Shown: piece by piece, positions 2,544 to 64,000 of the stretch
Layout: each line of letters starts with the position of its first letter
Position numbering within the stretch: position 1 is the stretch's first letter
Source: Dysidea avara
Taxonomy: Eukaryota; Porifera; Demospongiae; Dictyoceratida; Dysideidae
Length of the DNA stretch: 64,000 bases
NCBI RefSeq assembly: GCF_963678975.1
Contig: NC_089272.1
Coordinates: 24,803,471-24,867,470 of the forward strand
Direction of reading: 5' to 3'
The notes under the pieces: model-generated
What the model was told of the DNA's origin: nothing
Databases searched by the model: none
Seen by the model: only the letters and a program-made list of their open reading frames with translations
Translations under genes and position numbers: made by a program

Positions 2544-4357
2544 TCAGTGATGATAGTTAATGTTAATGGTACAATTAGTTGCACCAACAAGGTTAATCCC
2601 TGAAGCCATGTTCTCTTGATTTTCACTCTTTTCTGGCTTGTCATGCTGCTTAACCTTCTCATCTGGTGATACTTTCAAATCTTGATCCTTAGTGGTAGTA
2701 ACAGTACCATTTAGCACATCTGATGTTACAGTCCGCAATTTCTCACCAACCCGCTTATAAGCCCTCACAGCATTAGATGAGTGTCCCGTCCTTTGCATAA
2801 TAAGTTGCTCATCTACTTTGGCTTCAAACAATCTGGTTGCATTTGTGGCGCGAAGTGAGTGGTTGGTAAACATTCCCTCAATTCCTGCTGCTACACACAA
2901 TCTGCGAACAGTTTGCTGTAATGAATTATGCCCAATAGGTATTTTGTGATACCAACATTGTTCAGTTGGTTTAGCAAGTGGCTTTAGATAAAGTGCTCCA
3001 TCTGGACGATCCTCTGGACACTTTGACATGTATAACTTGTAGAGCCTGACTAAACAACGTTCTGGATTATCATCATTAGCATACTGAACCACTTGCTTTT
3101 GCTCCCGCCTGCGGTGTACAAGACCTCCTTGATTTGCTTTAGACACGTCTTCTGTGTACATTACATAAGCCCGTCCATTAGTAGGTTCAAACAGCTGGAT
3201 CTGTGAGGGATAATACCTCAATCTTCTATGCTCCACACCACTTCGTAATGCAAAGTAAAAACCTATATAATATATCAATGTGTTTAGTAGCTGTTGTGGA
3301 TGTTTATCTCCAAGTAACCCCTGTTTCCACAAAGTATCTTCATGCTCCTCAGTAAGTATTTCAGCTTTTTTCACTTGATAATTGCCAGTAGATTTCAGTT
3401 CTTTCATGCGTGCATCTAAAGTAGCACGAAACTGACAAAACATAGGATCGGCTAGTATATTTACATCAGCTCTGTCTACTTCTCTTAACAAACGTAATAG
3501 TGCACAGCATATCTGATAAAGAGTATCAGGTGAGTATGGCCTACCATCTTTTCGCCTCACTTCAAGTACGAACTTCCCTAACCAAAAATTCATAGCTTGT
3601 TTCGACATTTTACAGAAATCCTCAAGTAGCTTGTGCTCCTTTTCCTCAGGCTCAACACATGAACACTGCAAACGATATTGAACCCACTCACGCCATATAT
3701 TCCCCACCCATTTGTTCTGGTCTTGTGTTTTGACTGGTATTCCACGTTTCCTTGCTTCCTCAACTTCCTTGGATGTTTTTGGTGACCCATATCGTACACA
3801 ACCTCTATTAACCACTCCGCTAGTCTCACTAACAGTTTCATTTTTACTACCTTCCTCAAACAATGTTGGTTGAGGTCCACCATCAGTCAGGTGACGCAGC
3901 GGAGATTGTTTACCTTCGAAATGCTGTGATGCAAGAAGAAGAATGTCATCAGTAACTTGATCGGGAAATTCTTCCTTAGTAAATTCTACGGACGAACAGT
4001 TGTTCAACTCTCGCTCAAACTGCTGTGATGCAAGTAGAAGGAGGTCGTCGGCTACGCGGCCAGAAAACAGTTCCTTAGCCACTTGTGAGTGAATTATCGA
4101 CGTCTTCTTGACTTCAACACCTGTGCAGTTAAACTTTTCACAGTTAATAACCATGCAACAGAATGCTTACTTGTATTCTGCTGGCTCACAAAAGTTCGCA
4201 CCTTGGTTCGCACCTCAACATCAGTTTCACCATCGCTGCTAGATTCAGATTCACTTTCCCAAGGTTCTCCCAACCCGAGTTTAAATCGTTTAGGGCATTT
4301 CCAACCTGGAGGAGGCTTCATAGGTTGAAACGGCTTGAACTTCAACTGTCCCGCCAT
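2544..4357 (-). CDS. Crypton-type tyrosine recombinase (DUF3504-like), two exons
   Basis: Two exons, 4357-4171 and 4120-2544, are joined across a 50-bp intron (donor gtaagc, acceptor gcacag, phase 1) to give 587 residues. The first exon encodes a basic-then-acidic N-terminus starting MAGQLKFKPF with a Ser/Glu-rich stretch. The C-terminal half has the tyrosine recombinase signature: R355 in ALRSGVEH, H483 and R486 in HSLRATN, H509 in RTGHSS and the nucleophile Y517 in VRAYKRV. The family cuts and rejoins DNA through a 3'-phosphotyrosine bond. Related domains occur in Crypton transposons and in domesticated ZMYM and QRICH1-like proteins. The catalytic set is complete and no frameshift is seen, so the gene may still be active or only recently silenced. 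It sits in an intron of the Ig/FN3 gene, on the same strand. A domesticated host gene is possible but less likely given the flanking inverted motifs. Confidence 0.88.
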
Positions 4358-8700: not shown

Positions 8701-8921
8701 AAGAAATGCAAGTCTTCCATAATCATTATTGTGCCTGTAGATTAGATAGAAACGTAGGTCAAAGCCAGCTTACAACCAGCTATGAGGTAAGAAAATTGAA
8801 AAGAAATGAAATCCATGAAAAACTGGACATGGTGTGGGTCTTTAAAATGTATTTTGAAGGTCGTGCTGTATTTTCACAGCTGTTTTTTTTTCATGAATAT
8901 ATTATGTGTATATAAGTGTAC

Positions 8922-9191
8922 CTTTCATATCTTTAGTCATCACAGTCACACTAGTAGGTCTGCCATTACTAACTAGGCTTACAACACGTACAGTGATATT
9001 ATATGAGGTGTTACTGGTCAATTCAGTGAATGTTATAAATGTATTGTTGATCATCCTTATTGTACCATGAGATGGTGATATTGTAGCATTGTATCTTGAT
9101 GAACCACATGATGGAGGAAGTGATGACAGAGAAACTGTAATGGTGCTAGTATTAGTATCAATCATTAATATTGTGGGTGGATCAAATGCAT
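8922..9191 (-). CDS. Fibronectin type III domain exon
   Basis: A 270-bp exon on the minus strand has a clear acceptor (ctcttttacag before 9191) and donor (ATGAAAG|gtacac after 8922), both in phase 1, the usual symmetric arrangement for one FN3 domain. The translation has a Pro-rich start (DAFDPPTILM), alternating hydrophobic strands, several N-glycosylation sequons (NTS, NAT, NNT, NTS, NIT) and the late-strand signature SYNITVRVVS. FN3 domains mediate extracellular binding in receptors and adhesion proteins. The Ig exon lies 2.3 kb upstream on the same strand and the Ser/Thr repeat exon lies downstream. The 5' and 3' exons of the gene are not visible. Confidence 0.75.
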
Positions 9192-9637
9192 CTGTAAAAG
9201 AGTACATACATATTATAGTAAAATAAAAACATATAGACAATGTATATTAATTATTCTATTTGGATAGCCAAATTGCAAAAATGATATCACAAAAATAACG
9301 GCTGCTATAGTGTTAGCACTAATCATGTCCTTTACAACTTGTTAATGTTGGTAGTAGATCTAATGCTTTCTTCCTTTCTACTGGTATAAAACTGTAAACC
9401 TAAGTACCACACTGCATGGTGTCATTTACCAACCAACCTAATGGCTAGGGGATGACCTATTCATATTTACTAGCACCATAGAAAGGTGAGTGCATGATTA
9501 GTGAATCTTTCCCCCAAGCCAATCCTCTTAGTGGGAACCTGTAACACAATGTTTACATGTATGGTGCAAAACTGCAATATTGGAGGTTCCGTCCTGACAA
9601 GAATGCACAAAAGATACACTCACCCAGATGAGGATGC
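9192..9637. other. Intronic stretch without recognised features
   Basis: This lies between the FN3 exon and the TIR element at 9638. No exon, TIR or tandem repeat is seen. Confidence 0.5.
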
Positions 9638-11245: not shown

Positions 11246-11503
11246 AAATTAAAGTTCAGTCATCTTATTTTGATTCTTCATAAGCTATACATATATTATA
11301 GCTACACAGTCCCTTCAACAATTTCTGTAGTAAAGGGGAAAAAGTTGAAAACCTACTTTTAGTCTGCTGCCTGCAGTGAACTGAGTGCAGTAGATCCCAT
11401 ATAATGACTGCAATCTTCACTGAACATGCTAGAGCATAGCACATCAGTACAACTGCTGCCATTATTCACAATTTAAGAAGTTATGTACATTATATACACT
11501 CAC

Positions 11504-11884
11504 CAACTAGTGTAATAGTTCCCACTTTGCTCTTAATGATGGTATGATCATCTAATTGAAAACTACACTGATATGATGACTGGTTGTAAGTTTCATCCAC
11601 TGAACTAATTAACAGTGTACTATTGATACTACTGTTAACATCTTGATTGGTCAAATCAGGTACCCATTCTAATTTATCACCAGAATTATTATTGATATCA
11701 GTTGTATTTCTAGTTACATCACTGATAACAGAACCATTCTCAGCTCTTCTAATAATCCTCCAGTTTGGTACTGTAGTGTTAGTAGGAGCTCCAGTAAAAC
11801 CACAAGGTATTTCTATGGCTAAGATTTGTTTTTCCCCATTAAGACATTTTGTAACATTATTAGGACCTTTATTGATCATTAAAC
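11504..11884 (-). CDS. Immunoglobulin-like (V-type) domain exon
   Basis: A 381-bp minus-strand exon has acceptor ctttacag before 11884 and donor TTG|gtgagtg after 11504, both in phase 1. It encodes 127 residues with the Ig core: the first Cys in IEIPCGF, a Trp in VPNWRI and the SSYQCSF Tyr-x-Cys of strand F, followed by a strand-G-like KVGTITLVG. At least seven N-glycosylation sequons show that it is extracellular. Ig domains in this arrangement serve in adhesion or ligand recognition. With the FN3 exon downstream, the gene resembles sponge Ig/FN3 receptors and aggregation-type surface proteins. The cytoplasmic part, if any, is not visible. Confidence 0.75.
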
Positions 11885-11999
11885 CTGTAAAGTTAAGGAA
11901 GTAAGTCACAGGTACACTACATAATAATTACTTGCTATGTATTTATGACTACTGTTAATTTAATATACACTGCATTGCACTGTTACAGCTAAATCAGGA

Positions 12000-43807: not shown

Positions 43808-43814
43808 TATAAAG
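43808..43814 (+). promoter_or_regulatory. TATA box of copy A
   Basis: TATAAAG lies 79 bases before the start codon in a block (gaagctctgcttgca) conserved in copy B, where the box reads TATAAAAG. The spacing fits a transcription start near 43840. The position is inferred from conservation and consensus. Confidence 0.55.
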
Positions 43815-43892
43815 GAAGCTCTGCTTGCACTGTGGCATTACACAAGAACCCTGCAAAGTATACTTCAGTAGCAACAGATGGCTAATTTCAGC

Positions 43893-45377
43893 ATGAAGGC
43901 TTTAGGATATAAGCTTTCAGTTACTACAATTTTCCTGATAACTATGATCATTGTTGCACACAGTGCTCCAATGAAGAACAAGCGGGACAGTGGAGTATAT
44001 ATTGGCTACAAGACACAACAGTTCTATTGTACATCTGAACTTATTAAACTACAAGTACAGTACATGGTGAAGGTATATATGCAGTGAACTAATAGTGTAC
44101 TATTTTACTCTTCATTGTATTATTTACTCTGTAGCATAGAAAGGTAGTTGTACTACCAACAGAACAGTCCGACAATTCTTCTGAACTCAACATTGTCAAT
44201 CTATCACTGCAGCAGTTTGATTTCACGTGTAGTATATTCACAACTGCAATGGCTATAAAATATCAGTTACAGAATTCTTTATTCAGAGGAGAATATTTTG
44301 TTGAGCAAAATGACAGTTTGAAAAGAGTGAATAATATAGAAGATATCAGCAAAATAAACAGTGTGCTTGAGTATCTTCAAACACTGACTGATATTCTTCA
44401 AGACATTGAGGTAACCATATAAAGTAGCAGATATATACTGCACCCAGGGAATTACGTATAGCTTTGTCACATATTGTATCATGCCATTGAGGTCCTTGCA
44501 ATTGGTTACATGGCCTCTTCGTATGGATCAAGCTTTATATTGCTAATACAGAAATACTGTACTACTGTATACTCTTCTTGTATTAGTATTACATACAATG
44601 TATATGCAAAGTACAGTGTTTCTTGTGGATACATACCTGTGCATGCTAATGTAAATATAAGGTTGAAACTAATACTGCAAATGCTTGGATGCTATATAGG
44701 TCAAGTAGTTATTTATACCACATTTACCCCTCACATAACACATTTGTAATCAAGTGAAATTATGAGAGCCATGAAATTTAATTTTGATTTGTGGAATTAA
44801 AAGAATGCACTTTAATTTGTGTGTCAGGAATATTTACATGGGAACTTTATTACAATGTGTGTACTGATGCTTTAAAAGTTGTAAACTCGACATTGTAGTC
44901 TGGTATAAAGCATGTCACATAAACATGGCTACAAAAGTATATAGCTAGTATTCACCTGTTCTCCATTGTCAATGCTAGAGAGTAGTCAAAAATCTATAAT
45001 AATATTTATCCAGCACTAATATAATTACCATACTTGAGAATCCATAGTTTTACTAGATATCTGATGATATATTGTAATGTGTATGTGTGTCTCAAGTTAC
45101 ATAGTACTGTAGTTAACTTTGATGATTATTACAGGTAATAATTTTTGTTTTCTTACTATAGGAAATTTTGTCAGCTAAACATTGCATAGTGTTTAGTCCC
45201 AGTGAGTACAGGAGAGCATATTGTGAATTATTTGATGAGGATAATTGTGCTAATGGTACTTCTGTGTTGGAGACCTTGAAGCATGTGCACTGGACTAGAG
45301 TACGGAGTTACCCCAAGGAATGGCAGGATCCATTACCACAGCACTGTATGTGTAGTGGTTCTTGTTTCACAAAATGA
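43893..45377 (+). CDS. Secreted helical protein, copy A (intact; cytokine-like layout)
   Basis: Exons 43893-44072, 44135-44410 and 45162-45377 give 223 residues; both introns are phase 0 with GT-AG ends. The second ATG (MKALGYK) is chosen because the first, at 43878, is ATA in copy B. A signal peptide is clear: a hydrophobic TTIFLITMIIVA core with cleavage predicted after AHSA. The mature part has four helix-prone blocks (about residues 36-62, 82-108, 133-162 and 183-205) separated by polar loops, several N-glycosylation sequons and nine cysteines, four of them in the last 40 residues (QHCMCSGSC near the end). Short secreted proteins with four helices and only phase 0 introns resemble the genes of helical cytokines, but no cytokine sequence motif is recognised, so this is an inference. 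It could equally be a lineage-specific secreted effector or matrix protein. A TATA box and an AATAAA (about 45437) frame the gene. Confidence 0.75.
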
Positions 45378-45436: not shown

Positions 45437-45442
45437 ACTAAA
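45437..45442 (+). terminator. Polyadenylation signal of copy A
   Basis: AATAAA lies about 60 bases after the stop codon of copy A, the expected place. It is assigned by consensus only. Confidence 0.45.
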
Positions 45443-45496
45443 TAAACTACTAAAATTGCATTCTATGCCACAATTAATTTTGTATATATATTCAAC

Positions 45497-49088: not shown

Positions 49089-49167
49089 GAAGCTCTGCTT
49101 GCAGTGTGGCATTTCTACAAGAGCTCTGCAAAGTATATTTCAGCAGCAACAGATAGCTAGTTTCAGC

Positions 49168-50606
49168 ATGGAGGCTTTAGGATATAAACCTTCAGTTACT
49201 ATGATTTTTCTGTTAGCAATGATTATTATTGCACACAATGCTCCAGTGAAGAACAAGCGGAACAGTGGAGTATCTATTGGCTACAAGACACAACAGTTCT
49301 ATTGTACATCTGAACTTATTAAACTACAAGTCCAGTACATGGTGAAGGTATAAGCAGTGAACTAATAGTGTACTATACTCTTCATTGTATTATTTACTCT
49401 GTAGCATAGAAAGGTAGTTGTACTACCAACAGAACAGTCCAACAATTCTTCTGAACTCAACATTGTTGATCTATCACTACAGCAGTTTGATTTCTCATGT
49501 AGTGTATTCACAATTGCAATGGCTATAATATATCAGTTACAAAATTCTTTATTTGGTGGAGAATATTTTGTTGAGCAAAATGATAGTTTGAAGAGAGTAA
49601 ATAATACAGAAGATATTAACAAATTAAACAGTGTTTTTGAGTATCTTCAAACACTGACTTATATTTTTCCAAGACATCGAGGTATGTACATATAAGCTAG
49701 AGCAGATATATACTGCACCTGGGAATTACCTATAGCTTTGATACATATTGGATCATGCCATTGAGGTCCTTGCAATTGGTTATTAATTATGTGGCCTTAA
49801 AGTTGAAACTAGTATTGCAAATGCTTGGATACTATAGCTCAAGTAGTCATTTAGATCACATTATCCGTTTTTTACTGCTCACATGATGTATTTGTTATCA
49901 AGAAGTGTACTATGAAATCCGTGGAATTTATTTGATTTGTTCATTTAAATGAATGCACTTTGTATATCAGAAATATTTACATGGACACTTTAGTAGCAGT
50001 GTGTGTACTGATACTTTCCAAGTCGTAAACCTGACATTGTAGTCTGGTATAAAACATGTCACATAAGCATAATAGTATTCATGAGTTCTCAATTGTCAAT
50101 GCTAGAATAAAAAAATAAATAAAAAGGCATAACTGCACTATAATTACCATCTTTGAGAATCCATAGTTATAGATATCTGAGTTATGTAGCTAAGTGGATC
50201 TCATAATACATTGTAATGTGTATGTGTGGCTCAAGGTAGTAGTTTGATGATTATTACAGGTAATATTTATTTTATTTTATTACTATAGGAAATTTTGTCA
50301 GCTAAACATTGCATAGTGTTTAGTCCCAGTGAGTACAGGAGAGCATATTGTGAATTATTTGATGAAGATAATTGCGCTAATGGTACTTCTGTGTTGGAGA
50401 CCTTGAAGCATGTGCACTGGACTAGAGTATGGAGTTACCCCAAGGAATGGCAGGATCCATTACTACAGCACTGTACGCAAGAAAGTTATTGTTGTCAATT
50501 ACTGTGTAGAACTCACAAAAAGAGTATAAACACACAGATAATCATACATAAAATCAGTCTGTTGGGAAGAGGTATAAGGATAAATCATCACACAATGCTC
50601 CAATGA
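49168..50606 (+). pseudogene. Secreted helical protein, copy B (frameshifted)
   Basis: Exon 1 (49168-49347, MEALGYKPSV with an intact signal peptide ending AHNA) is the same length as in copy A. Exon 2 (49405-49681) is 277 bp against 276 in copy A: one extra base near 49668 ('ttttccaag' against 'cttcaag') shifts the frame just before the splice donor, and reading into exon 3 then meets a stop within six codons. Exon 3 (50290-50606) is still open in its old frame. It diverges after QHC, where the last cysteines are replaced by unrelated sequence at the junction with copy C. A sequencing error in a T run would restore the frame, so pseudogene status is likely but not certain. If expressed it would give a protein of about 155 residues lacking the last helix. 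Confidence 0.7.
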
Positions 50607-50684
50607 AGAACAAACAGAACAGTGGAATATCTATTGGTGGCAAGACACAACAGTTCTATTGTACATCTGAAGTATTATATACTG

Positions 50685-52122: not shown

Positions 52123-54674
52123 CAGTGAACTAATAGTGTACTGTATACTCTTCATTGTATTATTTGCTCTATAGCATAGAAAGGCAGTTGTACTACCAAC
52201 AGAACAGTCCAACAATTCTTCTGAACTCAACATTGTCAATCTATCACTACAGCAGTTTGATTTCACATGTAGTGTATTCACAACTGCAATGACTATAAAA
52301 TATCAGTTACAAAATTCTTTATTCAGTGGAGAATATTTTGTTAAGAAAAATGACAGTTTGAAGAGAGTGAATAATACAGAAAACATCAGCAATTTAAACA
52401 GTGTCCTTGAGTATCTTGACTGATATTCTTCAAAACATTAAGGTATGTGCATATAAGCTAGCAGATATATACTACACCTATAGCTTTGATCCATATTGGA
52501 TCATGCCATTGAGGTCTTTGCAATTGGTTATTACATAATTATGTGGCCTCTTTGTATGGATCAAGTTTGTAATGCTAATACAGAACAGCTGTACTACAGT
52601 ATCCTGTTCATTACAGAATACCTGCTTTTGTAATAAAAATATAATCTTCCTGCGGATACATAGCTATGAATGATAATGTGTATTAAAGTTGAAATTAATA
52701 CTGCAAATGTTTAGATACTATAGCTCAAGTAGTCATTTAGATCACATGATCCATTTTACTGCTCACATGATGTTGTAATCAAGAAGCATACTATGAAATC
52801 CATGGAATTTATTTGATTTGTGCAATTAAATGAATACATTTTGTATGTCAGGAATACTTACATGGGCACTTTATTAGCAGTGTGTGCACTGATACTTTAC
52901 AATTCATAAACTTGACATTGTAGTCTGGTATAAAACATGTCACATAAGCATAATAGTATTCATGAGTTCTCAATTGCCATTGCTAGAGTAAACTAAAATA
53001 TGTTTAAAAGGCATAATTGCACTAATATAATTATCATCCTCGAGAATCCATAGTTCTACTATATATCTGAGTTATGTAGCTAAGTAGATCCATGATGCAT
53101 ATAATGTGTTCATGTGGCTCAAGGTAGTACATGTAGTTTGATGATTATTACATGTAATAATTTTTTATTACTATAGGAAATTACAGGAGAGCATAATATT
53201 ATTGTAAATTCTTTGATGAAGATAATTGTGCTAATGGTACTTCTGTGTTGGAGACCTTGAAGCATGTGCACTGTACTAGAGTACGGAGTTACCCCAAGGA
53301 ATGGCAGGATCCACTACCACAGCACTGTATGTGCAGTGGTTCTTGTTTCACAAAATAACTACTAAAATTGTATGCTATGCCACAGTTTGTTTTGTATATA
53401 GTACACTTTGAAGAAATGTTATGTTTTTACTTATGCCTTATATTATCAAAAGGTCTCCTTTCTTTAACACTATACTCGTTTAACTGGAGTATAATATTAT
53501 GTAAGTGGGTGTATGAGTGCTCTGTCTGCATGGAGGAGGTGCTAGATGTAATCTGTTCAACTTCATCATCATCACATACCATCTTTATTTGAAAATTCCT
53601 TTCTACCCAAAACCGAACAGTGTATACTGGTCGTATATTCAAGCCATACAAGCTAAGCTGGGAACTACTGCAAATAATTGTGACATGTACTCCTATTCTG
53701 AAATTAGTGTGGGATATAGTGTAACGTAATAGTGTTAGCAGGTGCTACTCACTTCTGTCTACACAAGCTGAGATGCAGAGTATATTAATTTTGATAGTAT
53801 GCAGTATATATATTTATAGGCAGTTGATAATCCCAGTGGCATGGTGACCAGTCACATGCTCTGTCTACCAAGAGGTGGATACTTACAGGTACTTTGTCTG
53901 TGGTAACATGAAATGTGTAAGTAAAGTTTATTGCTGAAAGAGCAACTAGAACAACAATAATACTGGCCAAGAATATTGAAATTGCCTGGACAAGACAGTT
54001 GTACTTCATAACAGAATTTTCTACAGACTTTCTTTAACAGTTCTGCAATTTATAGAAAATTTTCAAGAATTGTTCAGGAAAGTCTATAGGAAATTCCCTA
54101 CACCTGTACAGTATGCTGTAGCTTTCTTGTTCAGGAAATTTTAATAATTATTCTTCCATTGCAAGTTAGCACAGCAAAGCATTGAACCCTGAACAATTTG
54201 ATTATCAAGCTAATGGTTTGACACACACCGTGCACAACACAATGCACATTTACTATACATGGGTAACATTATACATATCAGATGCACACACAATTATAGC
54301 CATCCAATCACTGTTAAAGAAAGGATTTCACATGAGACAAAGAAAAATCTACAGCTCATATACTGATATGCACAACCTTACATTAAAGAATCAAATGGTC
54401 TTCACTGAATGCTTAAAATGAATTCCTCAAAATTACCTCTTGAATTTGTGAGGTCAGTTAAAAGATATATTATCTTTTATCTGCCAAGAGCATCCATGTA
54501 AAGTACAGTACAAATGAACCCGTATGGATTCAAGTCGGTATTGAAGCACTTTTATGGTTCATGTATTAAAGAAAGTATATACAGTAGGTGCTTTGTACAT
54601 TTGTGCTATAAATTCAGTTGAGTTTAAGCCTATTTCTTTTACTACTGTATTGACTTGATGGTAGCTGCTGTAGA

Positions 54675-63167: not shown

Positions 63168-64000
63168 GATACCAATGATGAACCCACTACCATACCAGAT
63201 TATGCTTTGCCAAGCTTTTTGATCTACCTCTCATTGGGGTTCAAGCTGATTACCACAATGATCATCTTGCTAATGGCCGGATTGGTATTAGCCACTATCA
63301 AGACTACAAGGAGATTAAACAAGCCGCACAATATCTTTGTGGCTAATTTGATGGTAACTGACATAATCCTTGCAGTAATCAGTCTCTTTCAGCAAAGTGT
63401 TATGATGGTTGGATTTATCACTGGAAAAGGAGACTTCATCCCATGCAATGTCTTCCATTATCTTTTATCCCCAGCTGTTGAGATGTATTTCACGTTATTT
63501 TTGATATCTGCTGATAAGATAATAGCAATAGTGTATCCCTTAAGATATAAGCAGATTATGACACCTCATGTTGTAGTGTATGCCATAACTGCATCATGGG
63601 TGCTAGCATTTGCCATTTTCATTCCCAGGCTATTTAATAATGATGGTTACAATAAGGTAGCTGAATATGGTGTTTGCTTAACTATCAAAAACTCGTCTTT
63701 GCTGGGAAGAATAGTTTACCAGGTGATACCAGTCCTTATGAGCTCAGTACCAGCATTGGTTATTGATATTTACTTGGCAATAAAAACTTACAAGGTAAGA
63801 AAGCAAATTGAGAAGGAAACTAGATTATCAGGCTTTAGTGATCACCTTAAAAATTTAAGGCAAAGGCAAATCACTGTTAAGAGGCACCTTAAGCCAATGA
63901 TAACATTGCTTGTGGTTGTTCTGAGCAATATATGTACTGGTTTACTCATACCATTGCTTTATATTCCGGTAAGATTTCTGGACACTCCTGTAGCCTATGA
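63168..64000 (+). CDS. Class A (rhodopsin-like) GPCR, 3' truncated by the window
   Basis: An open frame from 63168 to the end encodes TM1 to TM6. TM1 is ITTMIILLMAGLVLATI. TM2 has NIFVANLMVTDIILAVIS with the conserved L-x-x-x-D. TM3 ends in SADKIIAIVYPLRYKQ, where D-K-I replaces the D-R-Y motif but IAIVYPLRY is typical. TM4 has its Trp in ASWVLAFAIF, TM5 has a Pro in VIPVLMSS, and a basic third loop of ~45 residues leads to TM6 LLVVVLSNICTGLLIP. The TM3-loop disulfide partners could be C in FIPCNVF and C in YGVCLTI. The Asp-Lys change may alter G-protein coupling or basal activity. In-frame upstream codons from ATG at 63117 (MMEEVDHIPSSGSG) are cut off by TAG at 63165-63167, which could instead be part of an acceptor (actatttag) for an upstream exon. 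The ligand class is not recognisable. Confidence 0.85.

Follow-up and report, generated by a model that had tools for sequence, protein, structure and literature searches.

The closest described systems are the helical cytokines of vertebrates. Families of helical cytokines often lack any similarity that sequence comparison can detect between them, and BLAST does not link the interferon and IL-10 families, although they share the fold; IFN-lambda was recognised from a like combination of secretion, fold and exons separated by phase zero introns (PMC2654155). Type I interferons form tandem clusters and include an intronless group beside intron-bearing genes; the intronless genes arose by retrotransposition, in at least two separate events in vertebrates, and IRF3/IRF7 sites are kept in the promoters of both gene forms (PMC5332411). 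A 2026 survey places IL-6-family ligands in vertebrates only, IL6R from molluscs on and JAK and STAT already in sponges, and describes Drosophila Unpaired (Upd) as ligands of the JAK-STAT receptor Domeless (PMC13203501); the class I receptor CRLF3 is given as absent from sponges (PMC6797617). Among the papers listed by literature searches aimed at this point, most subscription papers and preprints lying outside their coverage, no title or abstract opening dealt with a helical-cytokine family from a sponge or other non-bilaterian. Here we analyse a gene in a 64,000 nucleotide stretch of the sponge Dysidea avara (the window, C1:24803471-24867470 of the 550.8-Mb genome, C1 being contig NC_089272.1). 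It is one of dozens of paralogs, tandemly expanded, which make up a large and rapidly duplicating family; the encoded proteins look secreted, and their predicted shape is like that of immune signalling proteins such as interleukins and interferons.

The gene and the predicted fold of its product

The window gene is complete and lies on the + strand in three exons, with junctions checked base by base. Its features are as follows, with helices placed by alignment to a paralog model (see below).

43808..43813, + strand: TATA box TATAAA, 70 bases 5' of the first in-frame ATG
43878..44072, + strand: exon 1; signal-like N-terminus, KNKR as a short basic linker, and helix A including the conserved C51
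44073..44134, + strand: intron 1; 62 bases, phase 0, GT-AG, in the A-B loop by alignment
44135..44410, + strand: exon 2; loop between helices A and B, helix B carrying the family motif F..C..FT.AM..K.QLQ..LF, and the larger part of helix C
44411..45161, + strand: intron 2; 751 bases, phase 0, GT-AG, close to the helix C end by alignment
45162..45377, + strand: exon 3 including the stop; helix C end, conserved C165, mini-helix, helix D and cysteine-rich tail
45441..45446, + strand: poly(A) signal AATAAA, 63 bases 3' of the stop

A preliminary description of this locus had proposed three exons with both introns in phase 0, as is indeed found: exons 1 and 2 are 195 and 276 bases long, which puts both introns in phase 0, and the junctions are GT-AG. 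Its length of 223 residues applies if translation starts at the second in-frame ATG (43893), while the first (43878) gives 228. By inspection the N-terminus is hydrophobic and signal-like, in keeping with the signal peptide that had been proposed, and is followed by the basic site KNKR; the sequons are five in number, at residues 3, 79, 87, 124 and 188. Cysteines occupy residues 51, 97, 165, 178, 186, 219, 221 and 225. The claim that they concentrate at the C-terminus is only half right: tail cysteines exist, but they are variable, and those conserved in the family are C51, C97 and C165.

The product is predicted to adopt a four-helix up-up-down-down fold, on the basis of structural models of two paralogs to which the window protein is related by alignment. 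Both models match CNTF and other cytokines across all four helices with sequence order kept, with a root-mean-square deviation of 2.6-2.8 to CNTF, and both have the same best structural chain, CNTF 1cnt_4. Helical cytokines fill 50/50 and 48/50 of the listed VIA rows for models 1 and 2, respectively, with the caveat that high Z arises by chance for helical bundles in this tool; the counts include chains not identified by the title of their entry (4j4l_C, 1i1r_B and 6oel_A among them), which we take to be cytokines from their residue range. Identity to cytokines in the listed structural alignments is 3-16%, and interferons rank under CNTF, leptin and IL-11 in both listed rankings. The best Foldseek E-value is 0.2, talin heading the list of model 2. 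The BFVD comparison is headed by a homolog of IL-10 from a virus (E 0.25, probability 0.92), with KSHV (Kaposi's sarcoma-associated herpesvirus) ORF K2 at rank 34 (E 2.3), lending weak support to a predicted cytokine fold. Neither of the two paralog models gave a confident fold of any other topology and, as far as modelled structures reach, the preliminary interpretation is supported for both fold and gene layout.

A tandemly expanded family with two gene forms

A DNA search over the 1485 bases of the gene returned three other full-length copies, with 85, 91 and 98% identity, of which the 91% copy has stops within exon 2, along with many partial ones. With exon 2 as tblastn query there were 92 matches up to E 10, 44 of them at E <= 0.001, merging into 88 places in 23 groups (11 consisting of a single place), a family count built on one exon with weak matches included, the weaker ones not each proven; the exon 3 search gave 36 matches. 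The main clusters lie on contig C1 at 24.64-24.95 Mb (12 places), contig C3 at 12.35-12.55 (18) and 13.42-13.57 Mb (13), and contig C10 at 5.28-5.56 Mb (14). The window itself holds further members:

49153..50492, + strand: family copy 2, degraded; lacks the first ATG, frame disrupted where exon 2 ends, tail altered
50588..50677, + strand: lone exon 1 fragment of the family
52175..53355, + strand: family copy 3, degraded; exon 2 and 3 remnants containing stops

A three-exon model could be built in 33 of 42 fetched loci (29 distinct places), several of the 9 failures being degraded copies, and paralogs sharing the architecture range down to 22-40% identity with the window protein. Because the script sought in-frame junctions only, these models are consistent with phase 0 without being independent support for it, and exon 1 ends are uncertain in one subfamily (L031, L034, L036 and L038). 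A second form of the gene, intronless and with a single open frame, occurs on contigs C10, C7, C9, C4, C2 and C1 (25 of 27 loci read). We aligned 44 members, comprising 19 of the 29 three-exon places, near-duplicates having been dropped, and 25 of the 27 loci examined for a single frame. Omitted were L084, whose frame is short, and L087, a three-exon copy that is broken; some of the 25 retained (L074, L080, L085) are truncated. In a quick, midpoint-rooted tree of these sequences a branch with SH-aLRT 96 separates the intronless members from the rest, so that a single change suffices; long branches meeting are flagged in this tree, in one case where the intronless side meets the group at 12.35-12.55 Mb of contig C3.

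Among the aligned members C97 is kept in 44/44 and C51 and C165 in 43/44 each, tail cysteines vary, the helix B motif is recognisable as a family motif, and the N-terminus is hydrophobic by inspection. Nei-Gojobori ratios of nonsynonymous to synonymous substitution (dN/dS) for the mature parts, computed for 25 pairs of our choosing, are 0.24-0.43 in all 6 pairs inside the window subfamily and 0.27-1.30 for 19 pairs in other subfamilies. The former values, the full-length copies and the recurrence of the architecture in paralogs of 22-40% identity together establish that the gene does not owe its appearance to chance.

The TATA box is found at -120..-60 in 51 of 54 family copies, intronless ones included, compared with an expectation of 4.6 under a Markov model (standard deviation 2.1, maximum 12 in 500) and with 1-5 of 48-54 copies in each of six other 60-base bins. 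Shared possession of this element and the open frames argue against the intronless copies being dead retrocopies. The resemblance to type I interferons extends in this way from tandem clusters and paired gene forms to a promoter kept in both forms, a TATA box here and IRF3/IRF7 sites there (PMC5332411), although no sequence similarity to interferons was seen among the Pfam matches listed and their structural rank is below that of CNTF, leptin and IL-11. STAT-type sites occur upstream of some copies, at positions differing between copies; a scan of 49 copies revealed no kappaB-type site upstream.

Several subfamilies carry a short basic site (KNKR, PVKR, RR, PVTR) behind the signal-like sequence, possibly for propeptide cleavage; it is absent from the contig C3 12.35-12.55 Mb group and the main intronless contig C10 group.

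Sequence relatives and pathway components

Profile searches with the window protein (Pfam) and against PDB sequences gave no convincing match to any known family, unrelated ones included, and no cytokine was matched among the PDB sequences. DoxD (PF04173) was the sole Pfam family matched by the window protein, at an E of 0.041 that does not reach the cut-off. With set A1 (50 rows), in a table that carries no cut-offs, 42 families appeared at E <= 1, with no interferon model among the first 25 of the 42; within those 25, DUF6217 was the most widespread (5/50 rows, best E 0.0045) and CTD5 had the lowest E-value (5.7e-4, 2/50 rows), and both were judged to be chance since such matches are spread across members and functions. 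Four matches from the PDB profile search (calaxin and designed proteins, E 0.65-1.7) were dismissed, as was a match in viral contig L095 (31% over 74 residues): by eye the frame looks like adenylosuccinate synthetase of a phage, and we ascribe the match, with its short stretch EYLQTLTD, to chance. A 10-member alignment compared with prokaryotic genome contigs and with viral contigs gave 64 and 107 stretches, respectively, that fit a pattern, and none was confirmed in either set. As sequence similarity was tested for and not found, we do not place the family in any named cytokine family. It resembles the long-chain class I cytokines (CNTF, leptin, IL-11, IL-6, G-CSF, prolactin) in predicted four-helix topology, secreted size and phase 0 introns, and differs from them in its three exons, its own cysteine set and its very high copy number, as well as in the low identity and missing profile match noted above. 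Upd, as secreted invertebrate ligands of a JAK-STAT receptor, offer a parallel to the proposed role.

On the side of the response, the STAT domain PF02864 gave 8 above-cut-off matches at four places on contig C10 (17.77-17.89 Mb; L096, L097), 30-58 kb apart, which suggests a tandem array of STAT5/6-like genes. In the one place that was read there are STAT_linker and STAT_bind exons, and among PDB sequences STAT5A matches best (E 1.5e-8). The class I receptor domain PF09067, through which alone a Domeless-like receptor was looked for, gave one genome match (E 0.5, with stops) and nothing above cut-off, and the JAK domain FERM_F1 (PF18379) gave 0 genome matches. These results do not show absence, because 0/14 control genomes gave an above-cut-off match to either domain. 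A vertebrate genome should contain several STAT genes and several PF09067 domains, so that STAT exons confined to one tandem group and the lack of an above-cut-off PF09067 match are indirect signs of a non-vertebrate genome.

Other features of the window, assigned from the letters and domain searches, are listed below. The fn3 and Ig-like (immunoglobulin-like) exons are probably fragments of a receptor-like cell-surface gene, at a distance of some 32 kb from the gene described here, and the 540-aa frame is a tyrosine-recombinase-type gene, perhaps of mobile-element origin.

8905-9246, - strand: fn3 domain exon, E 5.4e-6
11493-11927, - strand: Ig-like exon by eye only, sequon-rich, upstream of the fn3 exon, no Pfam match
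63168-63998, + strand: G-protein-coupled receptor frame of rhodopsin type, 7tm_1 E 9.4e-22, reaching the window end
2547-4166, - strand: 540-aa open frame with DUF3504, QRICH1 and phage-integrase-like domains
668-1222, both strands: tandem repeat, open in several frames, with an SSSTAGM-type repeat on the - strand

Mode of action and significance

We assign a probability of roughly 60% to the reading that the product is a small secreted four-helix protein of the long-chain helical cytokine fold acting as a cytokine-like ligand. The protein would be secreted through its signal peptide, perhaps trimmed at the basic site KNKR, and held in shape by disulphide bonds that link conserved cysteines. 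It would then bind a cell-surface receptor on other, neighbouring cells, which may respond through the STAT5/6-like proteins of the genome. TATA-type promoters would fit inducible expression, and many variants would be retained through fast turnover, like immune genes. That the protein works like a helical cytokine is our best inference; homology to vertebrate cytokines is a separate claim.

The same fold could also have been reached by convergence, in secreted effectors acting directly on microbes or competitors, in defence or recognition, without a cytokine-type receptor. Many tandem copies with degraded ones alongside, subfamilies with dN/dS near or above 1, variable tail cysteines, and receptor and JAK searches with nothing above cut-off, in the control genomes as in this one, are all in accord with such a role, which we nevertheless regard as unlikely, given that the structural match is specific to helical cytokines over other bundles and that interferons likewise show tandem and intronless expansion (PMC5332411). 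Less probable still is an unrelated secreted helical family (binding or structural, for example) without a PDB relative, for which cytokines would top the lists as well-sampled secreted bundles: chance high Z, the modest Foldseek E-values and the talin row leave it some room, but non-cytokine helical bundles, plentiful in the PDB, take only 0/50 and 2/50 of the listed VIA rows, the two models share their best chain, and the phase 0 introns and gene layout agree with cytokines.

A further proposition, which we regard as unlikely, is that this sponge, as an early-branching animal, possesses a large helical-cytokine system of common descent with the class I cytokines and interferons of vertebrates, and that the system expanded and lost its introns independently, as interferons did. 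If true, such a system would supply the ligands so far missing beside the JAK-STAT components that sponges are reported to have. A large helical-cytokine-like family outside vertebrates would provide candidate pathway ligands and allow a direct test of how old cytokine signalling is, and its tandem arrays, intronless group, retained promoter element and decaying copies would represent a further case of the evolutionary route taken by interferons.
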